From positions 3,699,001 to 3,763,000 of the forward strand of contig NZ_CP027668.1 of the NCBI RefSeq assembly GCF_003008515.1: a stretch of 64,000 bases of DNA. Direction: 5' to 3'. Each line of letters begins with the position of its first letter. Position 1 is the first letter of the stretch. Below the pieces are notes generated by a model. That model was not told where the DNA came from. It worked only from the letters and a program-made list of their open reading frames with translations, and ran no database searches. Source of the stretch: Phreatobacter cathodiphilus. GTDB taxonomy: Bacteria; Pseudomonadota; Alphaproteobacteria; Rhizobiales; Phreatobacteraceae. The translations under genes and the position numbers were made by a program. This document shows, piece after piece, positions 15,533-23,475 of the stretch.

Positions 15533-15955
15533 TCAGGCGGCGGCGCGCGGCGCTCCCTCGGCCTCGCTCATGGTCTCGGCCAGCATGCCGTAGCAGCGGG
15601 CCCAGGCGGCGCGGGAGGCATCGTCGAACCCGTCGCCGAGATGGTCGCCGAGGGTCTTCAGGAGAGCGATGCCGACCGTGTGATAGTCGGCGGCGGTGAC
15701 GCCGTAGCCGACATGTTTCGCACCGAGGGCGCGGACGTCGTCAATGACGGCGGCGAGGTCGTCGAGCGACAGGATGACGTGGGCCAGCACCTTCACCAGC
15801 TTGCCGCGCTGGGCGGAGAGGTCGGCGGGAAACATCGGCCTGAGCGTGCCGTCGAGGTGGAAGAGATTGTCGTAGAAGTCGGCGGCGAAGGCATCCGCTC
15901 GGCGGGCGACGAGGCCGAACTGGCGGCGGATGAGGGCGATCTGGTCGGGTGTCAT
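15533..15955 (-). CDS. Single-domain globin of the flavohaemoglobin type
   Basis: A 140-residue haem protein: the globin domain alone, without the reductase domains of flavohaemoglobin. The proximal histidine is H81 in AKHVGYGVTAADYHTVG. Y28 (B10) in DFYDNLF and Q49 (E7) in LSAQRGKLV give the Tyr-B10/Gln-E7 pocket common in NO-handling bacterial globins such as Vitreoscilla-type proteins. It could detoxify NO, deliver oxygen, or sense gas for the surrounding kinases. The ATG at 15955 gives MTPDQIALIRRQF; the frame runs on upstream but the added sequence is not globin-like. Confidence 0.9.
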   Translation of the reverse strand: MTPDQIALIRRQFGLVARRADAFAADFYDNLFHLDGTLRPMFPADLSAQRGKLVKVLAHVILSLDDLAAVIDDVRALGAKHVGYGVTAADYHTVGIALLKTLGDHLGDGFDDASRAAWARCYGMLAETMSEAEGAPRAAA

Positions 15956-16217
15956 GGGATGTATCCGCTGGTGGTGGTGGAGTGACCCGAGCCTCGCCGG
16001 GCCGTCCTTCACCCCCATGCCGCCCGTCGGACGCCGCTGTTTCCCCCGTTTCGATGCGTCCGATCGTCCCCCGGCTGAAACACGGATTGACGTTGCACGA
16101 CATGCGGCGGCACGAATGAGGCGGTCAGATCGTCCCGTTCCCAATCGCACCCACCGCAAGCGCAGACCCGATCCGATGCCGCCGCTCCAGACCACCCGCG
16201 AGACCGACCGGTCCGGC

Positions 16218-16925
16218 TCAGGCCGCTTCCCCGCCGGGCTTTTCGCCGGCATGGCTCGGCACGTCGAAGACGTAGCCGTGGCCGCGGACGGTGCGGATCG
16301 CCTCGGTGTCCAGCTTGCGCCTGAGGCGGGCGATGCGGGAATCGACGGCGCGGTCGAAGGCTTCCTCGTCCTCCGCGGGCGCCTGCTCCATGATCTCCTC
16401 GCGGGTCAGCACCTTGCCGGGATTCTCCGCAAAGATGCGGATCAGCGCCACCTCGCCGGCGGAGAGCCGGTCGGTCGAGCCGTCCACCTTGAGGATACGC
16501 GCCGCGACGAGATCGACCGAGGCCTGTTCGAAGACGACGAGGTTGCGCCGCCGTCCCAGCCGGCGCTGCAGGATGCCCGCCACGCGGGCGGCGAGCTCGC
16601 GCAGCTCGACCGGCTTCTGCACATAGTCGTCGGCGCCGAGTTCGAGGCCGAGCACACGGTCGATCGGATCGGGATTGCCGGTGAGGACCAGCACGGCGAC
16701 GTCGCTGGCCAGATCCGTCCGGATCAGGATGTCGATGCCGTTCTCGCCCGGCAGGCCGATGTCGAGAATGATGAGGTCTGGCTTCTCGCGGGCGAGATAG
16801 GGCTCCAGCTCCCAGGCCGCCTTCAGGCAGTCGACGTCGTAGCCGAGATCGGTAAGGTACTCCCGCACCGCGTCGGCCCAGTCGGGTTCGTCGTCCAGCA
16901 CCGCTATCCTGCCGCGCCGCGCCAT
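16218..16925 (-). CDS. OmpR-family response regulator (RR2)
   Basis: A 235-residue regulator. The receiver starts MARRGRIAVLDDEPDWADAV, with acceptor D55 in LIILDIGLPGENG, the LTGN threonine and the lysine in VQKPVELRE. The winged-helix output has DRAVDSRIARLRRKLD and ends TVRGHGYVFDVPS. The ATG at 16925 was preferred over in-frame ATGs further upstream, which add non-receiver sequence. It is divergent from RR3 across 110 bases. The globin gene follows downstream on the same strand after about 260 bases with no gene. Confidence 0.92.
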   Translation of the reverse strand: MARRGRIAVLDDEPDWADAVREYLTDLGYDVDCLKAAWELEPYLAREKPDLIILDIGLPGENGIDILIRTDLASDVAVLVLTGNPDPIDRVLGLELGADDYVQKPVELRELAARVAGILQRRLGRRRNLVVFEQASVDLVAARILKVDGSTDRLSAGEVALIRIFAENPGKVLTREEIMEQAPAEDEEAFDRAVDSRIARLRRKLDTEAIRTVRGHGYVFDVPSHAGEKPGGEAA

Positions 16926-16983
16926 CGTCTTCCCTTCCACAACCCGTCGCCGGACAGCCTCGTCCATGCGACACGTCATCCTA

Positions 16984-17011
16984 ATGCGCAGCCCTCGGGG
17001 CTGTCACGCAT
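16984..17011. promoter_or_regulatory. Inverted repeat between divergent response regulator genes
   Basis: ATGCG-CAGCCC-TCG-GGGCTG-TCA-CGCAT. An inner 6-bp perfect stem is flanked by a matching outer 5-bp pair with a 3-base bulge. It sits in the 110-base divergent interval of RR2 and RR3, 25 bases before the RR3 ATG. Candidate operator, possibly for autoregulation, or a leader hairpin of the RR3 message. Confidence 0.4.
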
Positions 17012-17035
17012 GCTCGCAACCGAAGGGCATCTGCA

Positions 17036-17758
17036 ATGAGAGCCACCGTGGCCATCGTCGACGACGAGGAACATCTGCGCGAGGCGGTCGGGGAATATCT
17101 CGAGCTCCAGGGCTTCGAGGTGATGAGCTTCCGCAACGCCCAGGCCTTCCGTGAGGAAAGCGCCGGCAAGGCGATCGACGTCGCCATCCTCGACATCGCC
17201 ATGCCGGGCGAGGACGGACTGTCGCTCGCCCGCTTCATCCGCAAGTCCGGCCAGACCGGCATCATCATGGCGACGGCGGCCGGGCGCCCCATCGACCGGA
17301 TCGTCGGCCTCGAGATCGGCGCGGACGACTATCTGGTGAAGCCCTACGAGCTCAGGGAACTCCTCGCCCGCATCAAGAGCGTGCTGCGCCGGGTGAACGC
17401 CGCGCCGGCCGCGGCCGAACCGCAGTCGCCGGCGGTACGCGAGGGCCGCAGCCTGCGCTTCGGCGCGCTGACGCTCGACCTCGACGCGCGCCGCCTCACC
17501 GACGCCGCCAACGGGCCGATCGAGCTGACCGCGATGGAGTTCGACCTCCTCCAGGCACTGGCGACGAGGCCGAACCGCGTCCTCTCGCGCGGCCAGCTCC
17601 AGGAATTCGCCCACGGGCGCTCCGCCGACGAGAGCGACCGCTCGATCGACATCCGCGTGACGCGTCTGCGCAAGAAGATCGAACCGGATCCCGAACACCC
17701 GCGCTTCATCAAGACGGTGCGCGGCGAGGGCTATGTCTTCGTCCCCAGCGGAGCGTGA
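17036..17758 (+). CDS. OmpR-family response regulator (RR3), partner of HK2
   Basis: A 240-residue regulator. The receiver begins MRATVAIVDDEEHLREAV, with acceptor D53 in VAILDIAMPGEDG and the lysine in YLVKPYELRELLARI. An Ala/Pro-rich linker leads to a winged helix with LSRGQLQEFAHGR, DRSIDIRVTRLRKKIE and the terminal VRGEGYVFVPSGA. Its stop overlaps the GTG start of the hybrid kinase HK2, so the two are almost certainly translated as a pair. RR2, on the other side, is the divergent neighbour. Confidence 0.94.
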   Translation: MRATVAIVDDEEHLREAVGEYLELQGFEVMSFRNAQAFREESAGKAIDVAILDIAMPGEDGLSLARFIRKSGQTGIIMATAAGRPIDRIVGLEIGADDYLVKPYELRELLARIKSVLRRVNAAPAAAEPQSPAVREGRSLRFGALTLDLDARRLTDAANGPIELTAMEFDLLQALATRPNRVLSRGQLQEFAHGRSADESDRSIDIRVTRLRKKIEPDPEHPRFIKTVRGEGYVFVPSGA

Positions 17759-19740
17759 TCGTGTCCTCGGCCAGCGGGGGGGCCGCTGCAGATTCGGGGA
17801 ACGACCTCGCGGCGATGGTGCGCGACGAGGTCCTGGCGCCCGGTGGCCGGTTCGACACCGGCGTGCTCGGCAGGCTCTTCGACGCCATGCCGATGCGTGT
17901 GACGGCAGCCGATGCCGAGGGCCGGTTCGTCTATGCCAACCGCGCCGCTCTCGCCATGTTCGACCTCAGCCTCGACCAGGTGGTGGGCCGGACCGTGCGG
18001 GAGATTCTCGGCGAGGACATGGCCGCGAGGACCACGCCGCTCATCGCCACCCTCGCCGGCGGCGAGCCGGTGCAGTGGAGCGACTGGGTCACCTATGCCA
18101 ACGGCGCCCGTCGCCATGTCGAGCAGGTCTATGCGCCCTGTTTCGACCGCGGCGGCGGCCTCGTCGGCTTCATCGCGCTGATCCGCGACACCACCGCCCT
18201 GAAGGAGCGGGAGGAGGCACTGGAGGCCCGGCTCGCCGCCCTGAACGTCGCCGAGGCCATCAACACCGCCATCATCAAGACCTCCATCGATCCGATCATG
18301 GTGGTCGACGAGGAGGGCGTGCTGATCGACCTCAACCCCGCCGCCATGGCGACCTTCGGCTATTCCCGCAGCAATTCCGTCGGCCGGCCGATCTCCGAAC
18401 TGATCATCCCGCCGTCCCTGCGGCAGGCCCATGCCGAGGGCATGGCCCGCTATACGGCGAGCGGCATCAGCCGCGTGCTCGACCAGCGGCTGACCCTGGA
18501 GGCGCAGCGGGCCGACGGCTCGGTCATTCCCATCGAGTTGACCATTTCCGAGATCCGCCTGCCGCAGCGGCGGGTGTTCACCGCGCACCTGCGCGACCTG
18601 TCGCAGGCTCGCGAGGCGGAGCGGCAGATGGAGCAGCAGCGCGAGCGGCTGCACCAGGCCGAGAAGCTCTCCGCCATGGGCTCGCTGCTCGCCGGCGTCG
18701 CCCACGAGCTCAACAATCCGCTGGCCATCCTCGTGGCGCAGTCGACCCTGCTGATGGAGACGGCGAGCGATGCCGGCCAGAAGCGGCGGGCCGAACGCAT
18801 CCACGCCGCCGCCGACCGGGCGGGCCGCATCGTCAAGAGCTTCCTCGCCATGGCCCGCCAGCGGCCGGAGAAGCGCGAGACGACCCAGCTCAACGACCTC
18901 GTCCGCTCCGCCGCCGACATGCTCGCCTACGGGCTGCGCAGCCACGACGTGACGCTCGACCTCGACCTCGACCCGAACCTGCCGGTCATCGTCGCCGACC
19001 AGGACTTCATCGGCCAGGTGGTCGCCAACCTCGTCATCAACGCCCAGCACGCTCTCGTCGACATGGAGCCGCCGCGCGTGGTCAGCATCGCCACCCGGCG
19101 CAAGAACGGCCATGTGCGGCTCGTCGTCAGCGACAACGGGCCCGGCGTGCCGGATGCCATCGCGGGGCGCATCTTCGATCCCTATTTCACCACCAAGCCG
19201 GCCGGCGTCGGCACGGGGATCGGCCTGTCGATCTGCAAGTCCATCATCGAGTCGCACGGCGGCTCCATCGCCCTCGACCGCAGCGAGGAGGGCGGCGCCC
19301 GCTTCACCGTGCTGCTCCCGGCCGCTCTGCCCCCGGCCCCGGCCGAGGCGCCCGAGGAGCCGGCCCGGCCGGAGGGCCTCACCATCCTCGTCGTCGACGA
19401 CGAGGCCGACGTGCGCGCCAGCCTCGCCGAGATGCTCGAACTCTTCGGCCACCGCATCCTGCCGGCGCAGACGGCCCGCGAGGCGTTGGAGGAGGGGGCG
19501 ATCCAGGCGGCCGACCTCGTCTTCGTCGACCTGCGCATGCCGGGCATCGACGGCCTGAAGTTCCGTGACCGGGCGGTGGCGCTCAATCCCCGCCTCGCCG
19601 ACCGGGTGGTCATCATGACCGGCGACGCGGTCGAGGGTCCGGGCGCCATCGAGCGCCACGCGGGAGACGAGACGATTCCGGTGATGGAGAAGCCCTTCAC
19701 CTTGGCAGACGTTCGCCGGATCCTCTCGGCCTTCATCTGA
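17755..19740 (+). CDS. Soluble hybrid histidine kinase with PAS domains and C-terminal receiver (HK2)
   Basis: 661 residues from the GTG at 17755, which overlaps the RR3 stop (a second in-frame GTG lies at 17761). There is no membrane segment, unlike HK1. Two PAS domains (about residues 40-145 and 165-285) precede HisKA with H317 in VAHELNNPLAI. The ATPase domain has DNGPGVP and TTKPAGVGTGIGLSIC. The receiver has D592 in VFVDLRMPGIDG. The order and the EKLSAMGSLLAGVAHELNN signature match HK1, implying gene duplication. It probably phosphorylates RR3. Confidence 0.93.
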   Translation: MIVSSASGGAAADSGNDLAAMVRDEVLAPGGRFDTGVLGRLFDAMPMRVTAADAEGRFVYANRAALAMFDLSLDQVVGRTVREILGEDMAARTTPLIATLAGGEPVQWSDWVTYANGARRHVEQVYAPCFDRGGGLVGFIALIRDTTALKEREEALEARLAALNVAEAINTAIIKTSIDPIMVVDEEGVLIDLNPAAMATFGYSRSNSVGRPISELIIPPSLRQAHAEGMARYTASGISRVLDQRLTLEAQRADGSVIPIELTISEIRLPQRRVFTAHLRDLSQAREAERQMEQQRERLHQAEKLSAMGSLLAGVAHELNNPLAILVAQSTLLMETASDAGQKRRAERIHAAADRAGRIVKSFLAMARQRPEKRETTQLNDLVRSAADMLAYGLRSHDVTLDLDLDPNLPVIVADQDFIGQVVANLVINAQHALVDMEPPRVVSIATRRKNGHVRLVVSDNGPGVPDAIAGRIFDPYFTTKPAGVGTGIGLSICKSIIESHGGSIALDRSEEGGARFTVLLPAALPPAPAEAPEEPARPEGLTILVVDDEADVRASLAEMLELFGHRILPAQTAREALEEGAIQAADLVFVDLRMPGIDGLKFRDRAVALNPRLADRVVIMTGDAVEGPGAIERHAGDETIPVMEKPFTLADVRRILSAFI

Positions 19741-19757: not shown

Positions 19758-20007
19758 GAGTCTCTGCGGTTCCAGACCGAATCCTCGCGGACCCACGCCG
19801 AGTCTTGCGTGAGTCCCTCGTACGGCCAGGAGGCCGGCGCGGAGTCGCCGTTAAGAATTCGTCAACCGAGATGACTCGCGGCGACACCGCGAAGACTCGA
19901 CCCCCCGCGTCTTTCGACTCGGCTAGTGGTCGGATCGACTCGCACCCACCACATCTCGTCGGGAACGAATCGTGACTCGGCACGAGTCAGCGATTCGGGC
20001 CCGATTC
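19758..20007. repeat. Dense, helically phased array of GANTC (CcrM-type) sites
   Basis: The 357 bases between HK2 and the helicase gene hold no credible gene but contain 14 GANTC pentamers, at 19758, 19779, 19800, 19811, 19842, 19873, 19894, 19916, 19937, 19967, 19974, 19984, 19992 and 20003. Steps between the first ten are 21, 21, 11, 31, 31, 21, 22, 21 and 30 bases, close to whole multiples of 10.5, so these sites face one side of the helix. Sites 1-5 read GAGTC/GAATC and sites 6-9 read GACTC. GANTC is the target of the cell-cycle methylase CcrM in alphaproteobacteria. The role is unknown: a regulatory region for the helicase gene or a chromosomal mark are possibilities. Confidence 0.85.
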
Positions 20008-20097
20008 GTTCCTCACCCGTTCCGGGCGTGAATGTGATGACAGCGCGGCGTGAAAAGATGCCCGCGCCCCGTCCCGGCATGATACAGGGATGGAGGA

Positions 20098-23000
20098 ATG
20101 ACCCTTTCGCTTCCGCCATTGCCCCCCGCCCTCCGCGGGCGTGGGGTCACCGCAGTGCTTGGCCCCACCAATACGGGCAAGACGACGCTCGCCATCGAGC
20201 GGATGCTGGCCCATCCCTCGGGGTTGATCGGCCTGCCGCTGCGCCTTCTGGCGCGCGAGGTCTACGGCAAGCTGGTCGCCAGGGCCGGTGAGGGCGCCGT
20301 CGCCCTCGTCACCGGCGAGGAGAAGATCAAGCCTCCGGGCGCGCGCTACTGGGTGGCGACCGTCGAGGCCATGCCCCTCGACCTCGACGTCTCCTTCCTC
20401 GCCATCGACGAGGTGCAGATCGCCGGCGACCTCGAGCGCGGCCACGTCTTCACCGACCGCATCCTCAACCGCCGCGGCCGCGACGAGACCATGCTGCTCG
20501 GCGCCGCCACCATGCGCGGGCTGATCGAGAAGCTCGTTCCCGGCGCCAACATCGTGACACGGCCGCGCTTCTCCAACCTCTCCTTCGCCGGCGAGAAGAA
20601 GATCACGCGGCTGCCGCGCCGCTCGGCCATCGTCGCCTTCTCGGCCGACGAGGTCTACGCCATCGCCGAGCTGATCCGCCGGCAGCGCGGGGGGGCGGCG
20701 GTTGTGCTGGGGGCTCTGTCGCCGCGCACCCGCAACGCCCAGGTGGAGCTCTATCAGGCGGGCGACGTCGACTATCTCATCGCCACCGACGCCATCGGCA
20801 TGGGCCTCAACCTCGACGTCGAGCACGTCGCCTTCGCCGCCGACCGCAAATATGACGGCTACCAGTTCCGCCGGCTGAACCCGGTGGAATTCGCGCAGAT
20901 CGCCGGCCGCGCCGGCCGCTCCAACCGGGACGGCACCTTCGGCACCACGGGTCGCTGCCCGCCGCTGGAGGACGAGCTCGTCCACGCCCTCGAAAGCCAT
21001 GCCTTCGACGGGGTGAAGGTGCTGCAATGGCGCAACACCCATCTGGATTTCGGCTCGGTGGACCGGCTGCGGGAGAGCCTCGACGTGGTGCCGAACGAGG
21101 CTGGCCTCACCCGCTCGCCCATCGCCGAGGACCAAAGGGTGCTGGAACTGGCGCTGCGCGACCCCATGGTGAAGGAGCGCGCCGTCGGTCGCGCCGCCGT
21201 CGCGCGGCTGTGGGAAGCCTGCATGATGCCGGACTACCGCAAGATCTCGCCCGCCAGCCATGCCGACCTCGTCACCACGCTTTTCGGCTATCTCACGGGA
21301 CGTTCGGGCCGGATTCCCTCCGACTGGATCGCCGCGCAGGTCGCCTTCGCCGACCGTACGGACGGCGACATCGACACGTTGTCGGCCCGCATCTCCCACA
21401 TCCGCACCTGGACCTTCGCGGCCAACCGGCCGGATTGGGTCGACGACCCCGTCCACTGGCAGGCCGAAACCCGCCGCGTCGAAGACATTTTGTCCGACGC
21501 CCTCCATGAACGCTTGACGCAGCGCTTCGTCGACCGCAGGACGAGCGTGCTGATGCGGCGCCTAAGGGAAAACACCATGCTCGAAGCCGAGATCACCAAG
21601 ACCGGCGACGTCACCGTCGAGGGCCAGCACGTCGGCCGGCTCGAGGGCTTCCGCTTCGCGCCCGATCCCCAGGCCGGCGACGGCGAGGCCGGCAAGGCTC
21701 TTCGGGCGGCGGCTTCGAAGGCGCTGGCGGGCGAGATCGACTCCCGCGCCGAGAAGCTCGCCGCCTCGGGCGACGAGACCTTCATCCTCTCCAACGACGG
21801 CACGATCCGCTGGCGCGGCGAGGCGGTGGCCAAGCTGGTGGGCGGCGACAAGGTGCTCTCGCCCCGGGTCCGCATCCTCTCCGACGAGCATCTGACCGGC
21901 GGCCCGCGCGACCAGGTGCAGGCCCGCCTCGACCTGTGGGTTCATGCCCAGATCGCCAAGCTTCTCGGGCCCGTCCTGGCTCTGGAGAGTTCGGAGGAAC
22001 TCACCGGCCTCGCCCGCGGCGTCGCCTTCCAGCTCGCTGAGGCCCTCGGCGTCGTCGAGCGCCCGAAGGTCGCCGAGGACGTCAAGCAGCTCGACCAGGA
22101 GGCGCGTGCCGTCCTGCGCAAGCTCGGCGTGCGCTTCGGCGCCTATCACATCTACCTGCCGGCGACGCTGAAGCCGGCGCCGCGCGCCCTGGCACTGCAG
22201 CTCTACATGCTCAAGCACGACATGCTTGAGAAGAAGGGCCTCGCCGAGCTGCCGGCGCTCGCCGCCTCGGGCCGCACCTCCATCGCCGTCGACCCGGAGA
22301 TCGAGAAGGATCTTTACCGCCTCGTCGGCTTCCGGGCGCTGGGCGCCCGCGCCGTGCGCGTCGACATTCTCGAGCGCCTCGCCGACATCATCCGCCCGGC
22401 GCTCGCCTGGCGTCCCGGCACGCCGACGCCGGAGCCGGCCGGCCATTTCCCCGGCGGCGGCTTCACCGCGACGGTCGGCATGACCTCGCTGGTCGGCTGC
22501 TCGGGCGAGGATTTCGCCTCCATCCTGAAGGGCCTCGGCTACCGAATGGAGAAGCGTCCCGCGCCGCCGCCGAAGTCCGCGGTGGAGAGCACCCCGGCCC
22601 CGGCCGAGGCTCCAGCCGAAGAGACGATGGACGAGGCTCCCGCCGAGGCAGCGACGGACGAGGCCGGCTCCGAGGCGGCCCCGATCGCCGAACTCGCCGA
22701 TACCGACGCCGCAGCACCGGTGGCCGAGGAGGCGGTGCCCGCCCCCGCCGTCACGGAGGAGCCGGCAGCGGCGGCCGCCGCCGACCTGCCGCCCGTCGAC
22801 GTGGTGGCGCCCGATTTCGAGGCGCCGGCCATGACCGACACCATGGCGCCCAACGCCGTGATGGATCCGGAGGCGGAACTCGCCGTCGTGCCGGCGCCCA
22901 CCGCCGAAGCTGGCGAGGAGGCCGCGCCGAGTGATTCGGCCGCACCGGCAGAGGCCGCTGCTCCCGCGGAGCCCGCCCTCGTCGAGGTCTGGCGGCCCGG

Positions 23001-23475
23001 TGGCCGCATGGATGGCGAGCGGGGCGGACGCCGCGATTTCCGCCGCGGCGGCGAGCGCGGCGAGGGCGAGCAGCGCCCCCACCAGGGCCGCCCGCGTCAG
23101 GGCCGCAATCCCCGCGAGGGCCAGCGCCAGAACCAAGGTCCGCGCGAGGGACAGCCCGCCGGCGAGGGTCCGGCGCGTGAGGGCGCGCCCGAGGGCGAGC
23201 GCCGCGAGGGCGGCCGGCCGCCGCGCCGCGACTTCTCGCGGTTCAAGGGCCCCGGTGGCCAGGAGAATCGCAATCACGAGAACCGCGGCCGCGACTTCCG
23301 CGGCAAGGGTGGCGACGGCGACCGCCGAGACCGTCCGCAGCGCGACGAGCGGCCCGACCAGCGCGGCCCGCGCCCGCAGCAGGACCGCGCCCCGCGCCGC
23401 GAGAAGGAGCCCGACCCGAATTCTCCCTTCGCCAAGCTCGCAGCGCTCAAGGATGCGCTGACGAAGAAGCCCTGA
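20098..23475 (+). CDS. SUV3-like superfamily 2 RNA/DNA helicase with disordered C-terminal tail
   Basis: A 1125-residue ATP-dependent helicase. Motif I is GPTNTGKTT near residue 23 and motif II is DEVQ in FLAIDEVQIAGDLERGH. Further on come TDAIGMGLNLDVEHVAF and the motif VI region QIAGRAGRSNRDG, all as in SUV3/mitochondrial RNA helicases. From about residue 820 the tail is Ala/Glu/Pro-rich and acidic, then Arg/Gly-rich and basic (EGQRQNQGPREGQPAGEGPA), a likely RNA-binding disordered region. GGAGGA sits just before the ATG. The S4-domain RNA-binding gene follows 18 bases later, which supports an RNA role. Confidence 0.92.
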   Translation: MTLSLPPLPPALRGRGVTAVLGPTNTGKTTLAIERMLAHPSGLIGLPLRLLAREVYGKLVARAGEGAVALVTGEEKIKPPGARYWVATVEAMPLDLDVSFLAIDEVQIAGDLERGHVFTDRILNRRGRDETMLLGAATMRGLIEKLVPGANIVTRPRFSNLSFAGEKKITRLPRRSAIVAFSADEVYAIAELIRRQRGGAAVVLGALSPRTRNAQVELYQAGDVDYLIATDAIGMGLNLDVEHVAFAADRKYDGYQFRRLNPVEFAQIAGRAGRSNRDGTFGTTGRCPPLEDELVHALESHAFDGVKVLQWRNTHLDFGSVDRLRESLDVVPNEAGLTRSPIAEDQRVLELALRDPMVKERAVGRAAVARLWEACMMPDYRKISPASHADLVTTLFGYLTGRSGRIPSDWIAAQVAFADRTDGDIDTLSARISHIRTWTFAANRPDWVDDPVHWQAETRRVEDILSDALHERLTQRFVDRRTSVLMRRLRENTMLEAEITKTGDVTVEGQHVGRLEGFRFAPDPQAGDGEAGKALRAAASKALAGEIDSRAEKLAASGDETFILSNDGTIRWRGEAVAKLVGGDKVLSPRVRILSDEHLTGGPRDQVQARLDLWVHAQIAKLLGPVLALESSEELTGLARGVAFQLAEALGVVERPKVAEDVKQLDQEARAVLRKLGVRFGAYHIYLPATLKPAPRALALQLYMLKHDMLEKKGLAELPALAASGRTSIAVDPEIEKDLYRLVGFRALGARAVRVDILERLADIIRPALAWRPGTPTPEPAGHFPGGGFTATVGMTSLVGCSGEDFASILKGLGYRMEKRPAPPPKSAVESTPAPAEAPAEETMDEAPAEAATDEAGSEAAPIAELADTDAAAPVAEEAVPAPAVTEEPAAAAAADLPPVDVVAPDFEAPAMTDTMAPNAVMDPEAELAVVPAPTAEAGEEAAPSDSAAPAEAAAPAEPALVEVWRPGGRMDGERGGRRDFRRGGERGEGEQRPHQGRPRQGRNPREGQRQNQGPREGQPAGEGPAREGAPEGERREGGRPPRRDFSRFKGPGGQENRNHENRGRDFRGKGGDGDRRDRPQRDERPDQRGPRPQQDRAPRREKEPDPNSPFAKLAALKDALTKKP

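Follow-up and report, generated by a model that had tools for sequence, protein, structure and literature searches.

Genes and GANTC sites at the locus

The window analysed here, a 64-kb stretch of the Phreatobacter cathodiphilus genome (4.49 Mb, one contig), contains a 357-bp gap between a gene for a hybrid histidine kinase and a gene for a Suv3-like DExQ helicase (Table 1). The helicase matched the Pfam model DEXQc_Suv3 (4.6e-22), the Helicase_C domain and the Suv3 structure 6f4a in the PDB (8.8e-36). The Suv3 match covers only the first ~280 residues of the protein, and the remaining ~850 residues gave no match in Pfam or NCBIfam. Elsewhere in the window, a globin-domain ORF (15533-16252, minus strand) overlaps a 369-aa ORF (15930-17039, plus strand) with no Pfam match; both lie between two hybrid histidine kinases and adjoin an OmpR-type response regulator.

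Table 1. Genes and sequence features in and around the GANTC array, numbered from the first base of the window.
Feature	Position	Strand	Remarks
Hybrid histidine kinase gene	17755-19740		
Phased GANTC array, sites 1-10	19758-19971	n/a	Starts at 19758, 19779, 19800, 19811, 19842, 19873, 19894, 19916, 19937 and 19967
CtrA-box-like TTAA-GAATTCG-TCAA	19851-19865	+	From the genus alignment; partly conserved in Phreatobacter; tentative
GAAC half-site fused to GANTC site 10, GAACGAATC	19963-19971	n/a	GAAC at the same offset in 77% of 92 core-bearing loci
GANTC sites 11-14	19974-20007	n/a	Starts at 19974, 19984, 19992 and 20003; out of phase with sites 1-10
Core 15-mer GAGTCAGCGATTCGG	19984-19998	+	Two GANTC 3 bp apart
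GTTC-CTCACCC-GTTC direct repeat	20008-20022	+	11-bp period; LexA-like, putative assignment
-10-like TGATACA	20080-20086	+	Conserved directly before the helicase gene; tentative
Suv3-like DExQ helicase gene	20098-23475	+	1125 aa; always preceded by the element

Direct counting recovered 14 GANTC pentamers within 250 bp (19758-20007), every one of them where the original prediction had placed it, at successive steps of 21, 21, 11, 31, 31, 21, 22, 21, 30, 7, 10, 8 and 11 bp. The array region has a GC content of 64%. The number of sites expected per 250 bp is 0.25 from the genome rate and 0.7 from the composition, and the Poisson probabilities of at least 14 sites are 3e-20 and 5e-14, respectively. 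The remainder of the window holds 64 GANTC with no more than three in any 250 bp, and in 400 kb of sampled stretches of the genome the rate was 0.99 per kb with a maximum of five per 250 bp. The single GANTC that had been noted in the 1.2 kb following the array needs to be corrected, as the next site lies 1.3 kb downstream, at 21312. Equally dense clusters elsewhere in the genome would have spoken against the array; a whole-genome search for GANTC triples (gaps of ≤30 bp), which would overlook a small number of triples in one orientation, detected about two dozen other places with at most five sites each, leaving the claim unrefuted. One five-site cluster (positions 1,874,895-1,874,988 of the genome; steps of 29, 21, 30 and 9 bp) is flanked by a Kelch-repeat gene on one side and a small multidrug resistance gene on the other.

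Sites 1-10 share a single helix face, as had been proposed, with R=0.96 at a period of 10.5 bp. This value was reached by none of 6000 random arrangements of 14 sites in a post-hoc simulation, in which any run of at least 10 sites was considered and the period was free between 10 and 11 bp. Sites 11 and 12 were correctly described as off-phase, and sites 13 and 14 turned out to share this property.

Two possible sources of the array were rejected. Coding sequence is represented there only by the overlapping ORFs of a GC-rich genome, and the region has gaps between species. As for tandem duplication, no repeat was found and the spacers are unrelated to one another. A scan of the helicase upstream region for consensus sigma-70 promoters found none. 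In a literature search of incomplete coverage, we found no description of the array or of the core element described below.

Conservation of the array in Phreatobacter

Of 12 Phreatobacter genomes, 11 yielded the helicase, and 9-15 GANTC precede the gene in all 11 genomes for which the region was recovered. In the genus alignment, identity to the reference amounts to 83% in the GA..TC columns as opposed to 53% in the other columns of the array. The steps are mostly near 21, 31 or 42 bp across the genus, the 21-bp spacing being kept while the spacers drift, and the phase of the upstream sites in each of the 11 species, which are related and hence not independent cases, ranges from R=0.78 to 0.99 at 10.5 bp. 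The central N differs at five of 13 shared sites (A/G, G/A, C/A, C/T and T/C), while GA..TC is kept. A retained GA..TC, a drifting N and a retained phase are as expected if the GANTC word and its phase are selected. The alignment supports the view that the array is under selection, with a constraint that appears to follow the GANTC pattern. Loss of the sites in close relatives had been named as a result that would speak against the prediction; instead, the sites are kept while their flanks change.

The same alignment bears on the idea that the GANTC palindromes act as a structured RNA or hairpin. The plus strand folds better than shuffled sequences (z -3.4) and in this species sites 10-13 can pair into an almost perfect stem, but the Ns of the inner pair are non-complementary in relatives (T/G 13, A/G 7, C/G 6) and the spacers have diverged in the genus. 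As the stem partners are without covariation and an Rfam search of the region gave no match, we rejected this idea as scarcely credible.

A core operator conserved in many families of Hyphomicrobiales

The 15-mer GAGTCASCGATTCGG, the centre of the core element, occurs exactly once per genome in 42 of 199 genomes of the order, with no control matches. The helicase gene is directly downstream in 29 of the 30 loci fetched; in the remaining locus, of which only a short stretch was covered, no helicase was matched. When 92 loci were anchored on the GATTC of the core, a first GTTC followed at +16 in 99% of them and a second at +27 in 96%. Among the non-Phreatobacter loci with the repeat in range, all 91 have GATTC exactly 16 bp before GTTC-N7-GTTC. 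These comparisons show a conserved core, a candidate operator made of GATTC 16 bp before GTTC-N7-GTTC, usually with more GANTC around it. In Phreatobacter, an array of GANTC spaced by multiples of the helical turn lies upstream of this core; the part kept across the order is the region of sites 10-14, not the phased array.

In 69 named loci, GANTC occurs upstream of the helicase gene at a mean of 5.5 per 400 bp, where the contigs concerned would predict 0.66, and in 44 of these loci the 400 bp upstream of the helicase surpass all other 400-bp windows of the locus. When one genome was taken from each of 28 other families, about nine had the core with GTTC-N7-GTTC, about eight had GTTC-N7-GTTC only, and about ten had neither. 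Most Ancylobacter loci are without the element altogether, only GATTC plus the GTTC repeat is kept in Xanthobacter and Azorhizobium, and the element is rare outside Hyphomicrobiales. In Bradyrhizobium and its relatives, a second GANTC cluster is situated about 157-190 bp ahead of the core, independently of how far away the gene is. This second cluster often contains a TTGACTC motif, and in some genera it is shifted by 10-11 bp, i.e., approximately one turn. Outside Phreatobacter, 134 of 270 pair distances (about half) are in phase; as the loci across the order are not independent, we draw nothing from this figure on phase as a general feature. We also considered that the element might belong to another gene in one family, in which it is seemingly separated from the helicase by 740 bp. 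This was rejected, as the helicase of that family has an N-terminal extension; the true distance is ~300 bp upstream of the helicase, with no gene between.

The original prediction had set sites 11 and 12 aside as lying off the phase of the others. They are indeed off phase, but sites 10-14 form the most widely conserved part of the region, a composite operator together with GTTC-N7-GTTC, and the off-phase sites are, to judge from this distribution, the older part. As the core lies upstream of the same helicase in many families and is single-copy where found, the region is, as far as sequence comparison can tell, a conserved composite control region of the helicase gene, which appears to have grown into a phased array in Phreatobacter.

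The GTTC repeat might indicate an SOS promoter, where LexA would bind GTTC-N7-GTTC and the GANTC sites would be conserved through their overlap with LexA sites. The SOS box of Caulobacter is GTTC-N7-GTTC (PMC9578287), overlap between GANTC and LexA sites has been proposed (PMC7987155), the repeat is carried by lexA and recA of the same genome, and both GTTC of the helicase box show the high conservation given above. Nevertheless, the spacer of the helicase box is GC-rich in most genera (35% AT over the core-bearing loci), whereas the spacers at lexA and recA are AT-rich; GANTC at -16 was found in none of 46 other boxes examined; and LexA does not account for the ten phased sites farther upstream. 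LexA control of the GTTC repeat is possible, but it is not favoured because of the GC-rich spacer, and we regard an SOS promoter as a distinctly unlikely explanation of the region as a whole. A count over the whole genome gave 106 GTTC-N7-GTTC, whereas the reversed control pattern numbered 23. The excess points to a fairly large group of putative LexA sites; some of the GTTC-N7-GTTC form close pairs, e.g., 1,592,843/1,592,869 at lexA.

The N of the core sites is fixed (GAGTC and GATTC), and hence part of the constraint is sequence-specific and not due to methylation alone. The array might be bound by a sequence-specific transcription factor with GA-N-TC in its site, for which methylation would be incidental. 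Besides the fixed N, the core sites have extended identity and three 11-bp repeats (GATTCGG/GATTCGTTCC/GACTCGTTCC), such direct repeats being typical of direct-repeat readers like the OmpR-family regulators, and GAGTC/GACTC make up 71% of the array sites versus 29% of those in the genome. At the phased sites, however, both N and the flanks vary while GA..TC stays. A degenerate site of four bases would be hard for a factor to use unless the mark is read, and the bacterium encodes a methylase for exactly GANTC. We consider this reading of the array somewhat unlikely.

Candidate readers of the GANTC mark

GANTC is the word methylated by the cell-cycle methylase CcrM. The genome encodes CcrM, as judged from a RAMA domain (1.1e-19) and a match to the CcrM model (5e-188; 624 bits, below the model cut-off of 830). 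CcrM was present in all 16 other genomes tested, those without the array included. Ancylobacter and its relatives retain CcrM and the helicase, and the array is absent there. Loss of CcrM as the reason for the missing array in Ancylobacter and Xanthobacter was rejected, as the methylase is present there.

The extended GcrA motif YGAKTCK fits eight of the 14 sites, compared with 25% of sites genome-wide (a two-fold enrichment; p=0.012), and 50% of the 137 sites in the genus. This makes plausible the original suggestion of a GcrA-like protein that reads methylated GANTC. The motif was reported for Caulobacter, and little preference for it was seen in Brevundimonas (PMC7987155). Binding of GcrA is promoted by methylation and covers >40 nt of the fully methylated ctrA P1 (PMC3667746). 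A smaller version of the feature occurs at ctrA, a known CcrM-controlled gene: in the genome studied here, where ctrA was recognised from the protein it encodes, its promoter contains five GANTC, with a first step of 21 bp, plus TTAACCATTAGGGCGTAA.

SeqA requires a pair of GATC in phase at a distance of two to three turns (PMC5145175), and the array, with its steps of 2-3 turns, fits such a requirement for two or more phased methylase words. The phased array may, tentatively, be a binding track for a protein that reads GANTC on one face in pairs, hemimethylated or methylated, either SeqA-like or a GcrA polymer, which would gate the Suv3-like helicase by the passage of the fork. To our knowledge, GcrA acts at one or a few promoter sites and not at arrays, and we know of no SeqA-like protein in alphaproteobacteria or of one that reads GANTC pairs.

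In alphaproteobacteria, the usual neighbour of the replication origin is hemE. The array is 51 kb from hemE here and 37-52 kb from it in Phreatobacter, and would remain hemimethylated long if the origin is as near as this distance makes likely. Such a location, together with the SeqA-like spacing, could mean that the array serves chromosome timing or titration, as a GcrA sink or a sequestration site, rather than helicase transcription. In other genera, however, 0.17-2.3 Mb separate the core from hemE, and it is always the helicase gene, not the origin, that the core accompanies, which makes this role very unlikely in our view. The resemblance to the GATC cluster of oriC, which had been pointed out in the original prediction, is not supported for the same reasons, as the element always precedes the helicase gene. 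A replication origin at the array itself was rejected: no exact DnaA box (TTATCCACA) was found in or near the window, the region is GC-rich, and the distance to hemE varies from 37 kb to 2.3 Mb. Four GANTC with steps of 21, 16 and 21 bp were also observed at 3,768,258-3,768,320 of the genome, ~2 kb from hemE, in what we take from the usual gene order to be the rho-mnmE origin region.

A putative methylation-read switch of the helicase gene

On balance, we think it probable that the suv3-like helicase gene is controlled from this region, in which the conserved core operator and the phased GANTC array constitute a replication-linked switch that is read through methylation. The element is single-copy and tied to the helicase gene. 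For the methylation state, the reader of the mark and the regulatory effect, we infer the following course. Methylation of the array by CcrM would take place late in the cycle, and the sites would become hemimethylated once the replication fork has passed. A reader of GANTC, for which GcrA acting with RNA polymerase and a protein with SeqA-like pairing are the most likely candidates, would bind the sites on the same face cooperatively and in this way switch transcription of the helicase with replication. Since many sites would change state together, the array would make the response steep. A second regulator, bound to the GTTC repeats, is probably contacted locally through the off-phase sites of the core.

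The role of CcrM marks in Hyphomicrobiales is only partly understood. A conserved single-copy element in which many GANTC are phased offers a probe for the reader of the mark, for the effect of spacing and for the role of the uncharacterised helicase in the cell cycle.

Comparison with known systems

Three known systems resemble parts of the region. The direct repeat before the helicase gene is alike to the SOS box bound by LexA in alphaproteobacteria, but differs from the boxes found at lexA and recA in this genome in its GC-rich spacer and in the fixed GATTC 16 bp upstream. With ctrA P1 and other CcrM-GcrA promoters of Caulobacter, the region shares the occurrence of GANTC ahead of a gene in an alphaproteobacterium that has CcrM, the enrichment of YGAKTCK and a CtrA-like box nearby. 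Unlike those promoters, it has 14 sites in 250 bp (five in the ctrA promoter of the same genome) that are helically phased, most of them far upstream of the putative promoter, and its core is joined with GTTC-N7-GTTC. Finally, like the hemimethylated GATC pairs bound by SeqA in E. coli, the array presents methylase words that share a helix face and are two to three turns apart; in contrast to the E. coli system, the word is GANTC instead of GATC, and the array stands before a helicase gene rather than at the origin.
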